Positions 1,768-35,173 of a stretch of DNA of 64,000 bases are shown one piece after another; the stretch's first letter is position 1; every line of letters starts with the position of its first letter. The DNA is from Thiogranum longum (lineage in GTDB: Bacteria > Pseudomonadota > Gammaproteobacteria > DSM-19610): positions 567,580-631,579 of the forward strand of contig NZ_SMFX01000001.1 in assembly GCF_004339085.1 (NCBI RefSeq), in the 5' to 3' direction. A program made the translations under genes and the position numbers. Below the pieces are notes generated by a model, which saw only the letters and a program-made list of their open reading frames with translations, was not told the origin of the DNA and made no database searches.

Positions 1768-2715
1768 ATGTCTGAAACGATTTATCTCAACGGAACTATT
1801 CCCGAACAGGCTGCCGGAAGGCGCCTCGACCAGGTATTGGCCGAGCTTTTTTCCCGGTATTCCCGCAGCCGTCTCCAGCAATGGACGAAGCAGGGGCATG
1901 TTTTACTGGACGGAAAACCGGCCACGGTCAGGCAGCGGGTGCTGGGTGGCGAGGCGGTTGAGGTTCGCGCGGAGTTGCAGGAAGAAGGGGCTGTCGAAGC
2001 GGAAAATATCGAACTTGATATTGTTTACCAGGATGAACAGGTGATGGTCATCAACAAACCGGCGGGTCTGGTTGTGCATCCGGCTGCCGGTAACCGGGCA
2101 GGTACCCTGCAAAATGCGTTGCTTTATCTTGACCCGGCGCTGGCAACCGTGCCGCGTGCCGGTATTGTGCATCGCCTCGACAAGGACACCAGTGGCCTGA
2201 TGGTGGTCGCACGCACGCTGGAGGCACACACCTCGCTGGTTGGGCAGTTGCAGGCGCGCAGTGTCGGTCGCGAGTATCTTGCCCTGGTACACACCGTGCT
2301 CACGGCCGGTGGTACGGTCGATGCTCCGATTGGCCGACACCCGAAGGATCGCCTGCGTATGGCAGTGGTTGAGTCGGGCAAGCCTGCGGTCAGTCATTAC
2401 CGGGTGCTCGAGCGTTTCACGGCACACACCTTGGTACAGGTGCGACTGGAGACCGGGCGGACCCACCAGATCCGTGTACACATGGCGCACATTCACTGCC
2501 CGCTGGTCGGTGACCCGGTGTATGGCGGCAGGCTGCGTATACCACGCGGCGCGTCGGAGCGCCTGCGCGAGGCCTTGCAGCATTTCAGGCGACAGGCCCT
2601 GCATGCCAGGCGGCTGGCATTCGTTCACCCGCAAAGCGGTGAAACGGTAAGCTGGGAAGTGGAGCCGCCGGAAGACTTTGCTGTCCTGCTCGATGTTGTG
2701 AGAGCGAAATCGTGA
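1768..2715 (+). CDS. rluD: 23S rRNA pseudouridine synthase RluD
   Basis: RluD isomerises uridines 1911, 1915 and 1917 in helix 69 of 23S rRNA. The 315-residue protein has an N-terminal S4 RNA-binding domain (about residues 16-75, 'RRLDQVLAELF') and the catalytic domain with the RluA-family motif HRLDKDTSG, whose aspartate (about residue 137) is the nucleophile. Later motifs 'GRTHQIRVHM' and 'GDPVYGG' are intact. It overlaps pgeF by 4 bp (ATGA), a standard pairing. Confidence 0.95.
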   Translation: MSETIYLNGTIPEQAAGRRLDQVLAELFSRYSRSRLQQWTKQGHVLLDGKPATVRQRVLGGEAVEVRAELQEEGAVEAENIELDIVYQDEQVMVINKPAGLVVHPAAGNRAGTLQNALLYLDPALATVPRAGIVHRLDKDTSGLMVVARTLEAHTSLVGQLQARSVGREYLALVHTVLTAGGTVDAPIGRHPKDRLRMAVVESGKPAVSHYRVLERFTAHTLVQVRLETGRTHQIRVHMAHIHCPLVGDPVYGGRLRIPRGASERLREALQHFRRQALHARRLAFVHPQSGETVSWEVEPPEDFAVLLDVVRAKS

Positions 2716-3476
2716 TCTACCCGGACTGGCCGGCCCCTGAAAATGTGCAGGCATTGACAACTACGCGTAAGGGCGGCGTAAGCCGTGGTCCCTGGGCCAG
2801 CCTGAACCTGGCTGATCATGTGGGAGATGACCCGCTCGCTGTACAGGAAAACCGGCGCCACCTGCATCAGTCACAGCAATTGCCGGCCGAACCCCTGTGG
2901 CTGAAGCAGGTACAGGGTGATGATGTTGCAGAGGTGGCGTTGTATGCCTCCCAACCGGGCCGGGATAGCCGTGCCGTGCCACAGATTGAGCCTCCCAGAG
3001 CAGATGCCAGTATCGTACGCGGGTCAGGCCAGGTAAGCGCAGTCCTCACCGCAGACTGCCTGCCGGTATTGTTCTGCGAGCGTTCCGGGCGTTGCGCGGC
3101 TGCAGCGCATGCCGGATGGCGTGGCCTGGCGGCGGGCGTGCTCGAGCGGACTGTGCAGGTGATGGGGATTGATCCTGCAGAGCTGCTGGTCTGGCTGGGG
3201 CCTGCTATCGGTCCACAGGCATTCGAGGTCGGTGACGAGGTGCGTAGCGTTTTCGTTGCCCGGCACACGCAGTCTGCCGATGCATTCACCCTGTATTCCC
3301 CCGGCCACTGGCTGGCAGACCTGTATCATCTGGCGCGTATTCGCCTGGCAGGCGTCGGCGTATCGGCTGTCTATGGTGGTGACCGCTGTACGTTTACCGA
3401 GGACCGCGATTTCTACTCCTACCGCCGCGATGGTGTAACCGGTCGCATGGCCACATTGATCTGGTTAAGTTCCTGA
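2712..3476 (+). CDS. pgeF: Peptidoglycan editing factor PgeF (YfiH/laccase-domain family)
   Basis: The 254-residue protein belongs to the YfiH/DUF152 family, purine nucleoside phosphorylase-like enzymes that in E. coli prevent misincorporation in peptidoglycan precursors. Family motifs are present: 'TTRKGGVS' near the N terminus, 'LTADCLPVLF', 'AAHAGWRGLAAGVLE' and 'GPAIGPQAFEVG'; their His and Cys residues form the metal site. Its ATG overlaps the rluD stop by 4 bp, implying translational coupling. A dispersed repeat follows, so pgeF is probably the end of this unit. Confidence 0.93.
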   Translation: MIYPDWPAPENVQALTTTRKGGVSRGPWASLNLADHVGDDPLAVQENRRHLHQSQQLPAEPLWLKQVQGDDVAEVALYASQPGRDSRAVPQIEPPRADASIVRGSGQVSAVLTADCLPVLFCERSGRCAAAAHAGWRGLAAGVLERTVQVMGIDPAELLVWLGPAIGPQAFEVGDEVRSVFVARHTQSADAFTLYSPGHWLADLYHLARIRLAGVGVSAVYGGDRCTFTEDRDFYSYRRDGVTGRMATLIWLSS

Positions 3477-8471: not shown

Positions 8472-9053
8472 ATGAAACTACAGAAAACCCTGGCGACTGT
8501 GCTTGCCGGCTCACTGGTGCTGGCTTTGTCACCGGCCGTTATGGCGGCAAAAGGCTTCAGTTACAGCTATGCCGATGTGGGTTACCAGCGAATTGATGGT
8601 GATGGCGTCGATTTTGATAACGGGGTGGTCGATGCCTCATTTGGCATATTCGACATGTTTGCCTTGCGCGCAGGTTTTCGGCGTGGCAATACGAGCGATA
8701 TACCTGGCGACAATCTGGATCTGACCGAGTTTCGTGTCGGCGGTCGGGGACACTATAAGCTGATGGACAAGCTGGATATATTCGCCGATGTGCTGGGATT
8801 TAATGCCAAATTTAACAGTAACCAGAGTACGTTCAATGATGCCGGCGCTATTTACGAAGCCGGTGTACGGTTCCAGGTAGTAAAAAAGCTGGAAGTCAAC
8901 ACCAGCTACAAGTACCTGTCCGGTGATATCGATGACGACTTTGGCACCGTCGGAGCCGTGTTCAAGATTAGCAAGGCATTTTCAGCAACAGCAAATGCTA
9001 CCTTTGGCAGTGAAATCGATGAGTATTTTGCAGGACTGCGTCTGAACTTCTGA
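8472..9053 (+). CDS. Small outer-membrane beta-barrel protein, function unknown
   Basis: The 193-residue product has a Sec signal peptide (MKLQKTLATVLAGSL...AVMA, cleavage about residue 25). The mature part alternates polar and hydrophobic residues in at least eight short strands, such as 'FSYSYADVGYQRI' and 'EVNTSYKYLSG', and ends in 'AGLRLNF' with the terminal aromatic residue used as a BAM signal. It resembles OmpA/OprF-like or lipid A-modifying small barrels in outline, but I do not recognise the family and assign no function. It is monocistronic, with a strong SD and its own terminator. Confidence 0.8.
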   Translation: MKLQKTLATVLAGSLVLALSPAVMAAKGFSYSYADVGYQRIDGDGVDFDNGVVDASFGIFDMFALRAGFRRGNTSDIPGDNLDLTEFRVGGRGHYKLMDKLDIFADVLGFNAKFNSNQSTFNDAGAIYEAGVRFQVVKKLEVNTSYKYLSGDIDDDFGTVGAVFKISKAFSATANATFGSEIDEYFAGLRLNF

Positions 9054-30974: not shown

Positions 30975-31065
30975 AGGGTGATACTACCTGAAAACACAGG
31001 TGGTATTTCAAATTTGCCGGTCTTTCACCGACAATAGGCGTCCATTTAACCTGAGGTGTCTTGTC

Positions 31066-32517
31066 TTGCGTTTGTATCGCCCCAAATCGATTCGACGATT
31101 ACTGCTGGTCGGCTTTGCGCTGGTGGTGATTCCGCTACTGGCGGCGCTGCTTCACGCTACCTGGTCAGTCGACCAGCTGGTGGCCCAGGGGCAGCGCGCC
31201 CTGTTTGCCACGGTGCGCGCTACCCAGAGTAGCCAGCTGCTGGTCGAGGCTATTACGGCCATGGAGCGTAATGCGCGTCAATACCAGGTGACCGGCGAAA
31301 GCAAGCTGCTGGAAGTCTACCGGGAGTATCACCAGCAGTTTCTCGATGCGGCGCGCCGGCTCGCGGTTCTGAACCTGTCTGAGTTGCAGCGCCAGCGGCT
31401 GGAAATGATCGAAACCGTTGAAGCTTCCATGAATGAGGCCTTAATGGCGGGATTTCCACATGACGCGCCGGAAGTGCGTTCTGCAGTTGATGGTTTTCGT
31501 GAGCTGACGCGTGATGCGCGCAAAATGCTGGTTGATAATCGCCAGCTGGTCGAGCGCGAAGTGGATCGGCTGGACGCCAAAGGCGAAGGGTTGCAGCGAG
31601 GCCTGATCGTGCAGGCCATGGCGCTGGTGCCGGCGGCACTTATCCTGACGGTATTTTTCACTGTTCTTATCACGCGTCCTATCCGGCAGATGGATCGGGC
31701 TATTCGCCGGCTTGGCGACGGTGATTTTTCCCGTTCCGCTCATATCGTAGGCCCACGCGACCTGGAGCAGCTCGGTGAACGACTGGACTGGATGCGTATG
31801 CGTCTGCTTGAGGTCGAGCAGGAGAAAAACCGCTTCCTGCGCCACATTTCCCACGAGCTGAAAACCCCGCTGACAGCACTCCGCGAGGGTGCCGAGTTGC
31901 TGACAGAGCAGTCAGTTGGCAGTTTGAATGCACAGCAGAGCGAGATTGTGGCGATTTTGAGGGATAACAGCCTGCAGTTGCAGAAACTTATCGAGAACCT
32001 GCTTGACTTCAATGTCGCCAGTTCCAGCGCCGCGCAGCTCAAGCTCAGCGTGGTACCGTTACACCGGGTGATCGAGTCAGTACTGGAGGACCACAAGGTA
32101 GCCGTACTGGCGCGTCAGCTGCTGCTGGATGTGTCACTACAGCCGGTCGAGCTGGACGGTGACCGTAAAAAATTGCAAACGTTGGTGGACAATCTGCTGT
32201 CCAACGCTATCAAGTTCTCCCCTGTTGAAGGGCGGCTGCGGGTAAAGCTCGAATGCCATGGCGAGCAGGCCGTGCTGGAAGTGGCTGATTCCGGACCGGG
32301 CATACCAGAGGAGGAACGACGACGCATTTTTGATGTCTTCTATCAGGGGTCCTCGTCATCAAATGGCCACGTACGTGGTACAGGAATTGGATTGTCTATT
32401 GCGCGTGAATATGCCCAGGCGCATGGCGGCTATATTGAAGTTATAGAAAGTGAAGACACCGGAGCATGCCTTAGAGTCGTGCTACCGATACACCGAACGG
32501 AGGTTGTAGGTGAGTAA
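31066..32517 (+). CDS. glrK: Sensor histidine kinase GlrK (QseE)
   Basis: The kinase has one TM helix near residues 12-30, a helical periplasmic domain of about 150 residues, a second TM near 180-200, a HAMP segment ('RPIRQMDRAIRRLGDGDF'), a HisKA domain with the phospho-acceptor His in 'FLRHISHELKTPL' (about residue 263), and a HATPase domain ('DNLLSNAIKFSP', 'DSGPGIP', 'GTGIGLSIA'). Together with QseG and GlrR it forms the envelope-stress system. TTG 31066 was chosen because GAGG lies 9 bp upstream; the open frame reaches back to GTG 31000. The stop overlaps qseG by 8 bp. Confidence 0.9.
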   Translation: MRLYRPKSIRRLLLVGFALVVIPLLAALLHATWSVDQLVAQGQRALFATVRATQSSQLLVEAITAMERNARQYQVTGESKLLEVYREYHQQFLDAARRLAVLNLSELQRQRLEMIETVEASMNEALMAGFPHDAPEVRSAVDGFRELTRDARKMLVDNRQLVEREVDRLDAKGEGLQRGLIVQAMALVPAALILTVFFTVLITRPIRQMDRAIRRLGDGDFSRSAHIVGPRDLEQLGERLDWMRMRLLEVEQEKNRFLRHISHELKTPLTALREGAELLTEQSVGSLNAQQSEIVAILRDNSLQLQKLIENLLDFNVASSSAAQLKLSVVPLHRVIESVLEDHKVAVLARQLLLDVSLQPVELDGDRKKLQTLVDNLLSNAIKFSPVEGRLRVKLECHGEQAVLEVADSGPGIPEEERRRIFDVFYQGSSSSNGHVRGTGIGLSIAREYAQAHGGYIEVIESEDTGACLRVVLPIHRTEVVGE

Positions 32518-33013
32518 GGCCTTAATATTTATGGTATTTGTTCTGGTTTCTGGCTGTGCGCCGGTAACCGTACAACGCACTGATGGCCCGGTTCCTCTGG
32601 CCGTGCGCGTGGACGATGCCGCTTACTGGTTGGAAGAGTGGAACCGTATTCGAGATCTGCCGGACGACATGCTGCAGCGTACGCTGCAGACCCGCGAGCG
32701 TGATTTTGCAAAATTTCCTACACCACGCAGTCGCTTACGGTTGTCTCTGCTGCTGGCAGAAGGCCCGAAGTCAGTACGTGATCAACCCCGTGCCCTGACA
32801 CTGCTAAAAGGACTGGACACCAGCAGGGCGAGTGATAGCGCCAAAGCATTGGCGGTTTTGCTGGAGCAGATTGTCGAGGAACAGTTGTGGTCCCGTGATA
32901 AAATCAACGAATTGAAATCCGGATTGAAGCAGGCTGATACGCGCGTGGAAGAGTTGGAACGACAGTTGCAAGAGCTAACCAACATTGAACAAAGTATCCA
33001 GCAGCGTAACTGA
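32510..33013 (+). CDS. qseG: QseG-like outer-membrane lipoprotein
   Basis: The 167-residue lipoprotein (lipobox VSGC, Cys16) lies between glrK and glrR, where QseG lies in enterics; QseG activates the kinase. It starts at GTG with GGAGG upstream. The product is mostly helical, with a C-terminal coiled coil ('LKSGLKQADTRVEELERQLQEL'). The name rests mainly on position, since sequence similarity in this family is low. Confidence 0.78.
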   Translation: MSKALIFMVFVLVSGCAPVTVQRTDGPVPLAVRVDDAAYWLEEWNRIRDLPDDMLQRTLQTRERDFAKFPTPRSRLRLSLLLAEGPKSVRDQPRALTLLKGLDTSRASDSAKALAVLLEQIVEEQLWSRDKINELKSGLKQADTRVEELERQLQELTNIEQSIQQRN

Positions 33014-33037: not shown

Positions 33038-34411
33038 ATGAGCGCATGTCGTTATCGTGTCATGGTAGTAGATGATGACCCCGCCCTGTTGCGGTTGTTG
33101 TCCATGCGCCTGTCAGCAGTAGGCTATGAAGTCACGGCTGTTGAAAGCGGGGAAAAAGCAGTTGCACAGATCCCGACCTTCCAGCCTAACTTGGTAATCA
33201 CGGACTTACGGATGGATGGCATGGATGGCATGACGCTGTTTGACATGATTCATCGGAGCAGTCCGGCGCTGCCAGTGATCATTCTCACGGCCCACGGCAG
33301 CATCCCGGATGCCGTCAATGCGACCAGCCGTGGTGTGTTTGGCTACCTGACCAAACCGTTCGATAGCCAGGATCTGCTTGAGCAGGTGACTCGCGCGCTT
33401 CGTGTTACCGGTGAGCAACAGAACCGTTCCGAAGCCTCGGCTGTCGCTGAATGGCGTCAGGGTATTATAACCCGCAGCCCGTTGATGGAAGACCTGCTTG
33501 GGCAGGCAAGGCTGGTGGCTTCAAGCGGTGCCAGTGTATTTATTCATGGTCAGAGCGGTACCGGCAAGGAAGTGCTGGCGAAAGCCATACACCGTGCCAG
33601 TCCGCGCGCTGACGGAGAATTTATTGCGGTTAACTGCAGCGCGATTCCGGAGACCCTGTTCGAGTCCGAATTTTTCGGTCATGCCAAAGGGTCTTTTACC
33701 GGTGCCACGCGCGAGCACAAGGGCCTGTTCCAGGCCGCCGAAGGCGGTACGTTGTTCCTCGACGAGATCGGCGATATGCCTATGAGTTTCCAGGTCAAGT
33801 TATTACGAGCTATCCAGGAGCGCACCGTTCGGCCGGTCGGGTCAACCTATTCAATTCCGGTGGATGTTCGTATCATTTCGGCAACCCACCGGGATCTGGA
33901 CGAGTTGCGCAAGGGCGGCGGCTTCCGTGAAGACCTGTATTACCGTCTGAATGTCGTTACGCTGGATATCCCGTCACTCATCGAGCGTCGCGAGGATATC
34001 CCTCTGCTGGCCAATCATGTATTACACAGTCTTGAGGACGCCTCTCGCAAGGGTGTTAAAGGCTTTGCGCCGGATGCCATGGAGGCGCTTCTGTCGGCGC
34101 CCTGGCCGGGGAATGTCCGCCAGCTTTACAATGTAGTGGAGCAGTCTGTGGCATTTACCACCACATCGCTGATTCCGGCCAGCCTGGTACAACGTGCATT
34201 GCGTGATGAAGCGAACGAGGAAATGCCGGCATTCGCCGATGCGCGTTCGCGTTTTGAGCGTGAATACCTCACCCAGCTACTGCAGATTACCAGTGGTAAT
34301 GTCAGTCAGGCCGCACGTATCGCCAAGCGAAACCGTACCGAGTTCTATAAGCTTTTACATAAACACCATCTGAATCCCTCCCAGTTCAAGGGTGCCCGCG
34401 CGGCGACCTGA
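33038..34411 (+). CDS. glrR: Sigma-54-dependent response regulator GlrR
   Basis: A 457-residue NtrC-type activator: receiver domain with phospho-acceptor Asp56 ('[10 protein letters not shown]'), AAA+ domain with Walker A GQSGTGKE (171-178), the sigma-54 contact loop GSFTGA (218-223, Ser in place of the common Ala) and Walker B 'LFLDEIGDM', then a Fis-type HTH ('[20 protein letters not shown]'). In E. coli GlrR activates glmY and rpoE from sigma-54 promoters via TGTC-N10-GACA sites. Exactly such a site and a sigma-54 promoter occur just downstream, before the EF-hand gene. Confidence 0.95.
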
Positions 34412-34461: not shown

Positions 34462-34479
34462 TGTCGGGATACAGAGACA
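34462..34479. promoter_or_regulatory. GlrR-type binding site (TGTC-N10-GACA)
   Basis: TGTC at 34462-34465 and GACA at 34476-34479 have a 10-bp spacer, the arrangement described for E. coli GlrR sites. It lies 51 bp after glrR and about 185 bp upstream of the inferred transcription start at about 34655, a normal enhancer distance. An AT-rich stretch (34486-34515) between site and promoter could help bending. Confidence 0.65.
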
Positions 34480-34628
34480 CCTCAGCTTATTGTTAACAAT
34501 ATAGATTTAAGCTAATGCGTTACTTCTGTCGTCAGAAGGTAACGAAATCTGCCGGTTCTGGCCGAAATTTCTACTGTTGAGCGAAAAATCTTTGGGCAAG
34601 CGGCTGTGCTGCGGTGCTTTTTCAAAGC

Positions 34629-34644
34629 TGGCATATCCCTTGCT
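34629..34644 (+). promoter_or_regulatory. Sigma-54 promoter of the EF-hand gene
   Basis: TGGCATATCCCTTGCT matches the consensus TGGCAC-N5-TTGCW at all key positions: GG at -24 (34630-34631) and GC at -12 (34642-34643), with correct 12-bp spacing. The start codon is at 34688. Confidence 0.88.
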
Positions 34645-34687
34645 GCCGCACTCTGTAAAAACATCAAACAAGAACTGAGGAGTGTTT

Positions 34688-34936
34688 ATGAAAGTGCTGG
34701 CAGGAATAGTTCTGTCGTGTATTGCGGCAGCCCACGCGTACGCCGATACGGTTGTGTCGGTCGATGAGCGCGGACTGGTGGCATTCATACATCTTGATAG
34801 TGATCACAATGGCTATGTAAGCCGCGTTGAGGCCCGTTCTATTACGGGCGTGGAGCGTGCGTTCGATACGGCTGACAGTAACCGTGACGGTTTGCTGGAC
34901 AAGGGTGAATACACACAGGTCAGGCAGGACAGATGA
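34688..34936 (+). CDS. Small exported EF-hand protein
   Basis: An 82-residue product with a Sec signal (MKVLAGIVLSCIAAAHAYA) and two EF-hand loops: 'DSDHNGYVSRVE' and 'DSNRDGLLDKGE', each with acidic residues at positions 1, 3 or 5, Gly at 6 and Glu at 12, suited to bind Ca2+. Start ATG 34688 follows GAGGAG; GTG 34682 is less likely. The sigma-54 promoter and GlrR site upstream suggest it is an output of GlrKR. Function unknown; a calcium-buffering or envelope sensing role is possible. Confidence 0.88.
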   Translation: MKVLAGIVLSCIAAAHAYADTVVSVDERGLVAFIHLDSDHNGYVSRVEARSITGVERAFDTADSNRDGLLDKGEYTQVRQDR

Positions 34937-35024: not shown

Positions 35025-35052
35025 TACGCGGTCCCCCAGACCGCGTTTTTTT
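35025..35052 (+). terminator. Rho-independent terminator after EF-hand gene
   Basis: Arms ACGCGGTC / GACCGCGT with a short loop, followed by eight T residues. It lies about 90 bp after the EF-hand gene; the space between holds no gene I can support. Confidence 0.9.
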
Positions 35053-35173
35053 TATCCTGCGTCGCTACAGGTGCAAAGCAAATGCTGCGCCGGTAAGCTA
35101 TGCTGCTGATGTTTTGTATTGATGCCCGGCGTTGCGTCAGGAATCTTTTTGTGTCGCTGTGGTCTTGAGAGGG

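Follow-up and report, generated by a model that had tools for sequence, protein, structure and literature searches.

Most of what is known about GlrR comes from enteric bacteria and concerns glmY and rpoE. In the window analysed here, that is, the whole 64,000-nucleotide stretch of Thiogranum longum DNA, a glrR-like gene is followed by a potential GlrR/sigma-54 promoter and by the gene of a small EF-hand protein, which raises the question of whether such a protein can be a local output of the GlrK–QseG–GlrR system. Passages of two papers describe QseF/GlrR as an activator of glmY and rpoE from sigma-54 promoters (PMC6075780) and cite TGTCN10GACA as the GlrR consensus (PMC8745638).

A putative GlrR/sigma-54 unit behind glrR

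The locus contains the following features, all on the forward strand.

31000–32517, + strand: glrK-like sensor histidine kinase (ORF; Pfam HAMP, HisKA and HATPase_c)
32510–33013, + strand: small lipoprotein in the qseG position (gene order; lipobox-like VSGC by eye)
33038–34411, + strand: glrR-like sigma-54 activator (receiver and Sigma54_activat domains; NCBIfam GlrR is the best model)
34462–34479, + strand: distal GlrR-type operator TGTCGGGATACAGAGACA (TGTCN10GACA; model score 15.5, itself a training site)
34527–34544, + strand: proximal, degenerate GlrR-type operator TGTCGTCAGAAGGTAACG (poor score of 3.0)
34629–34644, + strand: sigma-54 (–24/–12) motif TGGCATATCCCTTGCT (one mismatch to TGGCACN5TTGCW)
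34677–34682, + strand: ribosome-binding site GAGGAG, spaced 5 nt from the ATG (read from the sequence)
34688–34936, + strand: predicted exported EF-hand protein of 82 aa (ORF, Pfam; ATG at 34688)
34688–34744, + strand: likely signal peptide, residues 1–19 (by eye)
34796–34831, + strand: EF-hand loop 1, DSDHNGYVSRVE
34874–34909, + strand: EF-hand loop 2, DSNRDGLLDKGE
35026–35053, + strand: intrinsic terminator (8-pair stem, T8) at the end of the unit, followed by ybgC-tolQRAB-pal

The order of kinase, small lipoprotein and regulator genes is that expected for a GlrR system, and a search with the QseG model gave no match to the small lipoprotein at 32510–33013. The glrR product contains both the receiver and the sigma-54 AAA+ domain (Pfam); a match to HTH_8 for the C-terminal helix-turn-helix scored 17.8 bits, below the cut-off of 22. 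Among all NCBIfam models the GlrR equivalog (PRK15115) matched best, at 623.9 bits, followed by ntrC at 409.2 bits; because the equivalog cut-off of 763 was not reached, we call the protein GlrR-like on the basis of gene order and operator type. The genome contains rpoN, and the genes downstream of the EF-hand unit are ybgC-tolQRAB-pal (named by eye from translations).

The TGTC-N10-GACA site that the initial annotation had placed directly after glrR was present at 34462–34479, 167 bp before the sigma-54 motif. The same annotation described a textbook sigma-54 promoter about 150 bp further on; the place was right (150 bp separate 34462–34479 from TGGCATATCCCTTGCT) and so was the motif, whereas 'textbook' was slightly generous for a sequence with one mismatch. 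The proximal operator lies 65 bp after the distal one and 102 bp ahead of the motif, and relatives carry an operator-like site at the same offset. The arrangement is thus a TGTCN10GACA site upstream of a –24/–12 motif at glmY-like distances, with a degenerate proximal site. Transcription would be predicted to start near 34655. Between the operators and the promoter we found no exact match to the IHF pattern WATCAAN4TTR. The initial annotation did not include the proximal operator, the terminator or, elsewhere in the genome, a further EF-hand gene with a sigma-54 motif.

Within the 64-kb window both DNA motifs occurred at chance level, with 2 TGTCN10GACA sites seen against 0.98 expected and 49 sigma-54 patterns of up to two mismatches seen against 47.2 expected; the case therefore rests on comparison. 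Other operator-like sequences in the window were TGTCGGCGGTCGGGGACA at 8735–8752 (score 18.4) and, inside glrR, TGTCGCTGAATGGCGTCA at 33442–33459 (score 17.8), which could be a coding coincidence; similar sites occurred in L196 and L197.

Scores were assigned by an operator model trained on 36 sites behind glrR (16 from the family, 20 from others). Trained without E. coli, this model identified three sites at K-12 glmY, at –230, –197 and –134, where a sigma-54 motif, TGGCACAGTTACTGCA, lies at –27. For the two sites nearer the promoter, the distances to the motif are 170 and 107 bp at K-12 glmY, compared with 167 and 102 bp in the window. This match to glmY at near-equal distances is the strongest indication that the sites belong to GlrR.

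The EF-hand protein

The two EF-hand loops that the initial annotation had seen in a small protein after the promoter, DSDHNGYVSRVE and DSNRDGLLDKGE, lie in the 82-aa ORF starting at the ATG at 34688. Its product passed the Pfam gathering cut-offs of EF-hand_1 (31.5, cut-off 25.4) and EF-hand_6 (30.5, cut-off 25), and fell short of those of the pair model EF-hand_7 (27.9, below 30) and of EF-hand_5 (25.4, below 25.9). EF-hand_1 matched all 19 rows of the protein family at E values up to 0.001. In the window protein, positions 1, 3 and 5 of each loop are acidic or amide residues, and position 12 is E. Loop starts were 26 residues apart in 17 of the 19 rows, including L098 with its spoiled second loop, and 25 apart in one; in L017 the pattern fitted the first loop alone. 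These two proteins (L017 and L098) are overlooked by the strict two-loop search and were recognised in the locus readings.

Four of 11 pairwise comparisons were unsaturated at synonymous sites and gave dN/dS values of 0.05–0.18, and the remaining seven, with synonymous saturation, gave pN/pS values of 0.20 to 0.37. Judged by these ratios, strong purifying selection acts on the EF-hand ORF. Structure prediction from the single sequence was too poor for use (mean pLDDT 50.9). We take the protein to be a calcium-type compact EF-hand pair that is predicted to bind Ca2+.

Conservation in the family

All 20 genomes of the same family contained glrR, and in 12 of them an EF-hand ORF followed it (L001, L003, L004, L005, L007, L008, L009, L011, L012, L016, L017 and L018). 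An operator scoring above 7 was present in each of these 12 loci, and the sigma-54 pattern was matched in ten, the exceptions being L017 and L018. Enrichment was calculated for the 300 bases after glrR, with the rest of the same loci as background; the duplicate loci L023–L026 were excluded from this analysis, from the operator model and from the spacing and dN/dS analyses. These 6.0 kb contained 16 copies of TGTCN10GACA, spread over 15 of 20 loci, versus 3 copies in the other 79 kb, and TGGCA[CT]N5TTGC was found behind glrR in 15 of 20 loci versus 0 occurrences in the other 79 kb. The position model placed a second operator 65–66 bp after the first in many family loci; pairs 63–69 bp apart with both sites above 7 were present in 10 of 20. 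A hairpin with a T run, similar to that of the window, was seen by eye in 16 of 20 loci.

The other eight family genomes had no intact EF-hand gene behind glrR (L006, L010, L013, L014, L015, L019, L020 and L028), and the sigma-54 motif was still there in six of them. EF-hand remnants were recognisable behind glrR in L010 and L028, which therefore look like recent losses. On these counts, the EF-hand protein is a frequent but not constant product of the glrR-adjacent promoter. The order of site, promoter and EF-hand gene behind glrR, for which the initial annotation had suggested a search in relatives, recurred within the genus and in other families. Its proposal that the EF-hand protein is a local output of the GlrR system is supported, as a putative regulatory link, by this recurrence at near-fixed spacing; the eight family genomes without the gene count against it.

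Linked EF-hand genes and operator geometry across the class

We searched 369 genomes of the class, 87 of which had a GlrR match at E values up to 1e-140. Among the 150 matches listed for the class, an EF-hand gene lay within 6 kb of glrR in at least 22 of these 87 genomes, from at least 17 families, compared with 0.35 matches expected if the 92 listed matches of GlrR genomes are placed at random in 3.3-Mb genomes; the profile used (A1) comprises 19 proteins, some of them glrR neighbours, and favours such neighbours. A1 contained no protein from seven of the 17 linked families (f56, f20, f72, f82, f65, f76 and f139, one genome each). The other 65 GlrR genomes had no EF-hand match within 6 kb of glrR among the matches listed.

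In 18 of the 22 linked genomes listed (14 of 17 families), the EF-hand gene was preceded by an operator that stood in register with a sigma-54-like motif, under a loose sigma-54 pattern (essentially GG-N10-GC) with two distance ranges; the same rule applied to reversed sequences gave 0 of 22 in register and 4 of 22 with an operator alone. The in-register count is not independent of operator training for all families; outside the training set stand the sites of L165, L166, L168, L169 and L172 and the unlinked EF-hand genes. Nine of the 22 linked genomes had an operator pair 63–69 bp apart. No operator passed in four (G047, G165, G038 and G364), with a weaker site and a promoter motif visible in G165.

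The spacing of operator pairs behind glrR peaked at 64–69 bp beyond the family too. Pairs 63–69 bp apart with both sites above 7 were present in 14 of 87 other loci (a count of loci, distinct from the 87 GlrR genomes), and 11 of 12 operator pairs elsewhere in the loci had the same spacing; at least the pairs in G221, G219 and G283 belong to promoters of EF-hand genes. The operator-to-promoter distance was likewise nearly fixed across relatives. The complete architecture also preceded EF-hand genes upstream of glrK, in L165, L166 and L168. In L165 (bases 1829–3371, oriented), two operators and a sigma-54 motif are followed by three EF-hand genes in a row and then by the glrK operon. A single EF-hand gene is present in L166 and in L168, and in L168 it is divergent from glrK. 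Four Alteromonadaceae loci (L225, L226, L227 and L230) had a compact EF-hand gene upstream of glrK with weak operator-like sites only. A scan for one operator plus promoter covered 20 genomes, 13 from the family and 7 from outside it. The pattern was matched in 7 of 20 and 6 of 20 in two runs and the control pattern in 0; some of the matches away from glrR lacked the operator's CG core.

Unlinked EF-hand genes

In GlrR genomes, a strict operator pair plus promoter (score of at least 10) was found at 6 of 47 unlinked EF-hand genes and was absent at 41; reversed controls gave 0. Eight of the 47 genes had been added by hand (L133, L184, L180, L187 and four from the window's own genome), and without them the count is 4 of 39; the sites of L133 and L184 had already been noticed before their inclusion, and L315 was left out of the test. 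In genomes scored as GlrR-less, the strict pair occurred at 1 of 40 unlinked EF-hand genes, in G083. On the same contig, that genome carries a GlrR fragment of 59% identity that is truncated at the contig end, so 0 of 39 remain for GlrR-less genomes. Seven other such genomes were searched again; their best matches had 40–43% identity and some shorter matches as much as 48%, values that paralogues would give. For the remaining genomes the absence of GlrR rests on the 1e-140 threshold.

The window's own genome had five EF-hand matches. In the second best (L173, approximately 1468952–1469209 of contig 1), the sigma-54 motif TGGCATACGGCTTGCT stands just ahead of the gene start, and two weak operator-like sites (scores –0.8 and 8.8) are spaced by 65 bp; the gene failed the strict test (7.9) and is only suggestive of a further GlrR/sigma-54 EF-hand gene. 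In the sister genus the unit beside glrR lacks an EF-hand ORF; there, operators 65 bp apart occur at an unlinked EF-hand gene (L182, L184). Two unlinked EF-hand genes of a genome of the same genus (L276 and L277, G016) have one operator each (10.4 and 15.7), at 106 and 93 bp from the sigma-54 motif, respectively, and no second operator.

Other candidate GlrR outputs

In eight loci (L019 and L020, approximately 182–350 bases after glrR, and L046, L051, L060, L061, L070 and L091), operators were followed by an ORF-less stretch and a T-run hairpin before ybgC. The sigma-54 pattern passed in L019, L020, L046 and L051, was recognised by eye in L060 and L091, and was weak or absent in L061 and L070. 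Such units are candidates for GlrR-driven small RNAs outside enterics. As homologues of GlmY or GlmZ, the EF-hand-less units were rejected, there being no Rfam match in the window and 13 loci. Downstream of glrR in L078 and L084, the same kind of promoter preceded mdoG/opgG-like genes (Pfam MdoG), a periplasmic envelope function that may be another GlrR output. In L045 and L083, operators downstream of glrR were followed, farther on, by an N-acyl amino acid synthase/GNAT-like gene (Acetyltransf_5, FeeM).

Weighing the explanations

The selected product could be, or include, a terminated small RNA in the manner of glmY, with the EF-hand ORF as an optional passenger. This is possible because six of the eight family genomes without an adjacent EF-hand gene keep the promoter: operators, promoter motif and terminator persist in L010, L013, L015, L019, L020 and L028, and in L019 and L020 the approximately 130 bases from promoter to terminator hold no ORF and resemble a small RNA gene. 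Similar ORF-less units exist in other families, such as L046 and L051, and in E. coli the small RNA gene glmY lies beside glrK. However, the EF-hand ORF has a good ribosome-binding site along with its strong purifying selection, no GlmY, GlmZ or other Rfam family matched the window or the 13 loci at gathering level, and the genomes of L019 and L020 have an unlinked EF-hand gene with operators; the remnants in L010 and L028 may mean that the promoter outlived a recent loss. On balance we regard an RNA product as quite unlikely. The chance that the EF-hand pair is tuned to another metal, for example lanthanides, as a cousin of lanmodulin, is small. The best solved-structure match of the family profile was lanmodulin 6mi5, followed by 8fns (listed as an EF-hand domain-containing protein), which we take to be a lanmodulin, and there were a compact loop spacing and a weak match to NCBIfam LanM; yet that match scored 19.4 against a cut-off of 135, and the proline at loop position 2 that marks lanmodulin was absent from every intact loop of the 19 rows.

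Ten further matches spanning the sigma-54 activator domain in the genome leave a very slight probability that an NtrC-family activator other than GlrR drives the promoter, an idea opposed by the match of the operator model to the E. coli glmY sites, by the clustering of sites beside glrR or glrK, and by the strict architecture at 0 of 39 EF-hand genes of GlrR-less genomes once G083 is moved. That chance motifs stand beside an unrelated small gene, as their frequency within the window alone would allow, is scarcely credible: enrichment, fixed spacing, recurrence in many families and the complete absence of the full arrangement from reversed controls (0) mean that the comparison already speaks strongly against it. 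We consider it quite likely that the locus is a sigma-54 unit under the adjacent GlrK–QseG–GlrR system and that its product is a small periplasmic EF-hand protein. Comparison supports this reading through the operators, the promoter motif and their spacing, the purifying selection on the ORF and the recurrence in many families.

In the mechanism that we propose, an envelope signal, relayed via the lipoprotein, would activate GlrK. Phosphorylated GlrR would then bind both tandem operators, which lie 167 and 102 bp ahead of the promoter motif, and open sigma-54 polymerase at the promoter. The mRNA would yield an 82-aa preprotein for export, leaving a mature protein of approximately 63 residues, a compact EF-hand pair with loop starts 26 residues apart, which may bind periplasmic calcium, buffering or sensing it during envelope stress. 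Of these steps, we infer GlrR binding, activation, export and calcium binding; any role of the bound calcium and any feedback of the protein on GlrK are guesses.

Considering the loci as a group, we read them as a putative GlrR/sigma-54 regulon that encodes small periplasmic EF-hand proteins. Its recurrence in many bacteria that are only distantly related suggests calcium handling as a common, overlooked output of the GlrR system. A bolder proposal, which we hold to be unlikely as a whole, is that compact EF-hand proteins are an ancient GlrR output across Gammaproteobacteria and a fourth component of GlrK–QseG–GlrR; made on envelope stress, they would bind periplasmic calcium and feed back on QseG/GlrK, outer-membrane-bound calcium would be part of the signal, and in enterics glmY would have replaced them as the output of such a promoter. 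If the regulon exists, GlrR has a second widespread kind of target, an envelope regulator is tied to calcium, and small EF-hand proteins gain a testable role. The operator model could be used to trace GlrR regulons in genomes far from E. coli.

Comparison with known systems

Full-text search found no literature joining GlrR or QseF with an EF-hand; subscription papers are mostly outside its reach, so novelty is unproven. A full-text search on QseE, QseF and calcium found no mention of an EF hand, and the accessible part of a paper on the QseG–QseE structure names calcium in a reference title only (PMC12691602). Literature joining EF-hand with sigma 54 and RpoN gave no GlrR link in its accessible portions; it includes an EF-hand gene reported, in an excerpt, to be lowered in an RpoN mutant of Bradyrhizobium (PMC13207237).

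Among known EF-hand proteins, lanmodulin 6mi5 resembles the window family as its best match in a solved structure and differs by its loop-position-2 proline and by a LanM cut-off that the family is far from reaching. For EfhP (PA4107) of Pseudomonas aeruginosa, the portions of the literature available show no tie to GlrR or sigma-54. CaBP of Caulobacter vibrioides, as described in part of one paper, is likewise an EF-hand protein exported to the periplasm and connected with a stress regulatory circuit; unlike the window protein, it has three EF-hands and 133 aa and is linked to sigV, with no GlrR link found in that part (PMC13171946). On the regulatory side, the E. coli glmY promoter shares with the window unit the TGTCN10GACA-type sites, the sigma-54 motif, the near-equal distances and the position beside glrK-qseG-glrR. 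The two differ in position and product: glmY, a small RNA gene, is upstream of glrK, whereas the window unit is found downstream of glrR, ahead of an EF-hand gene.
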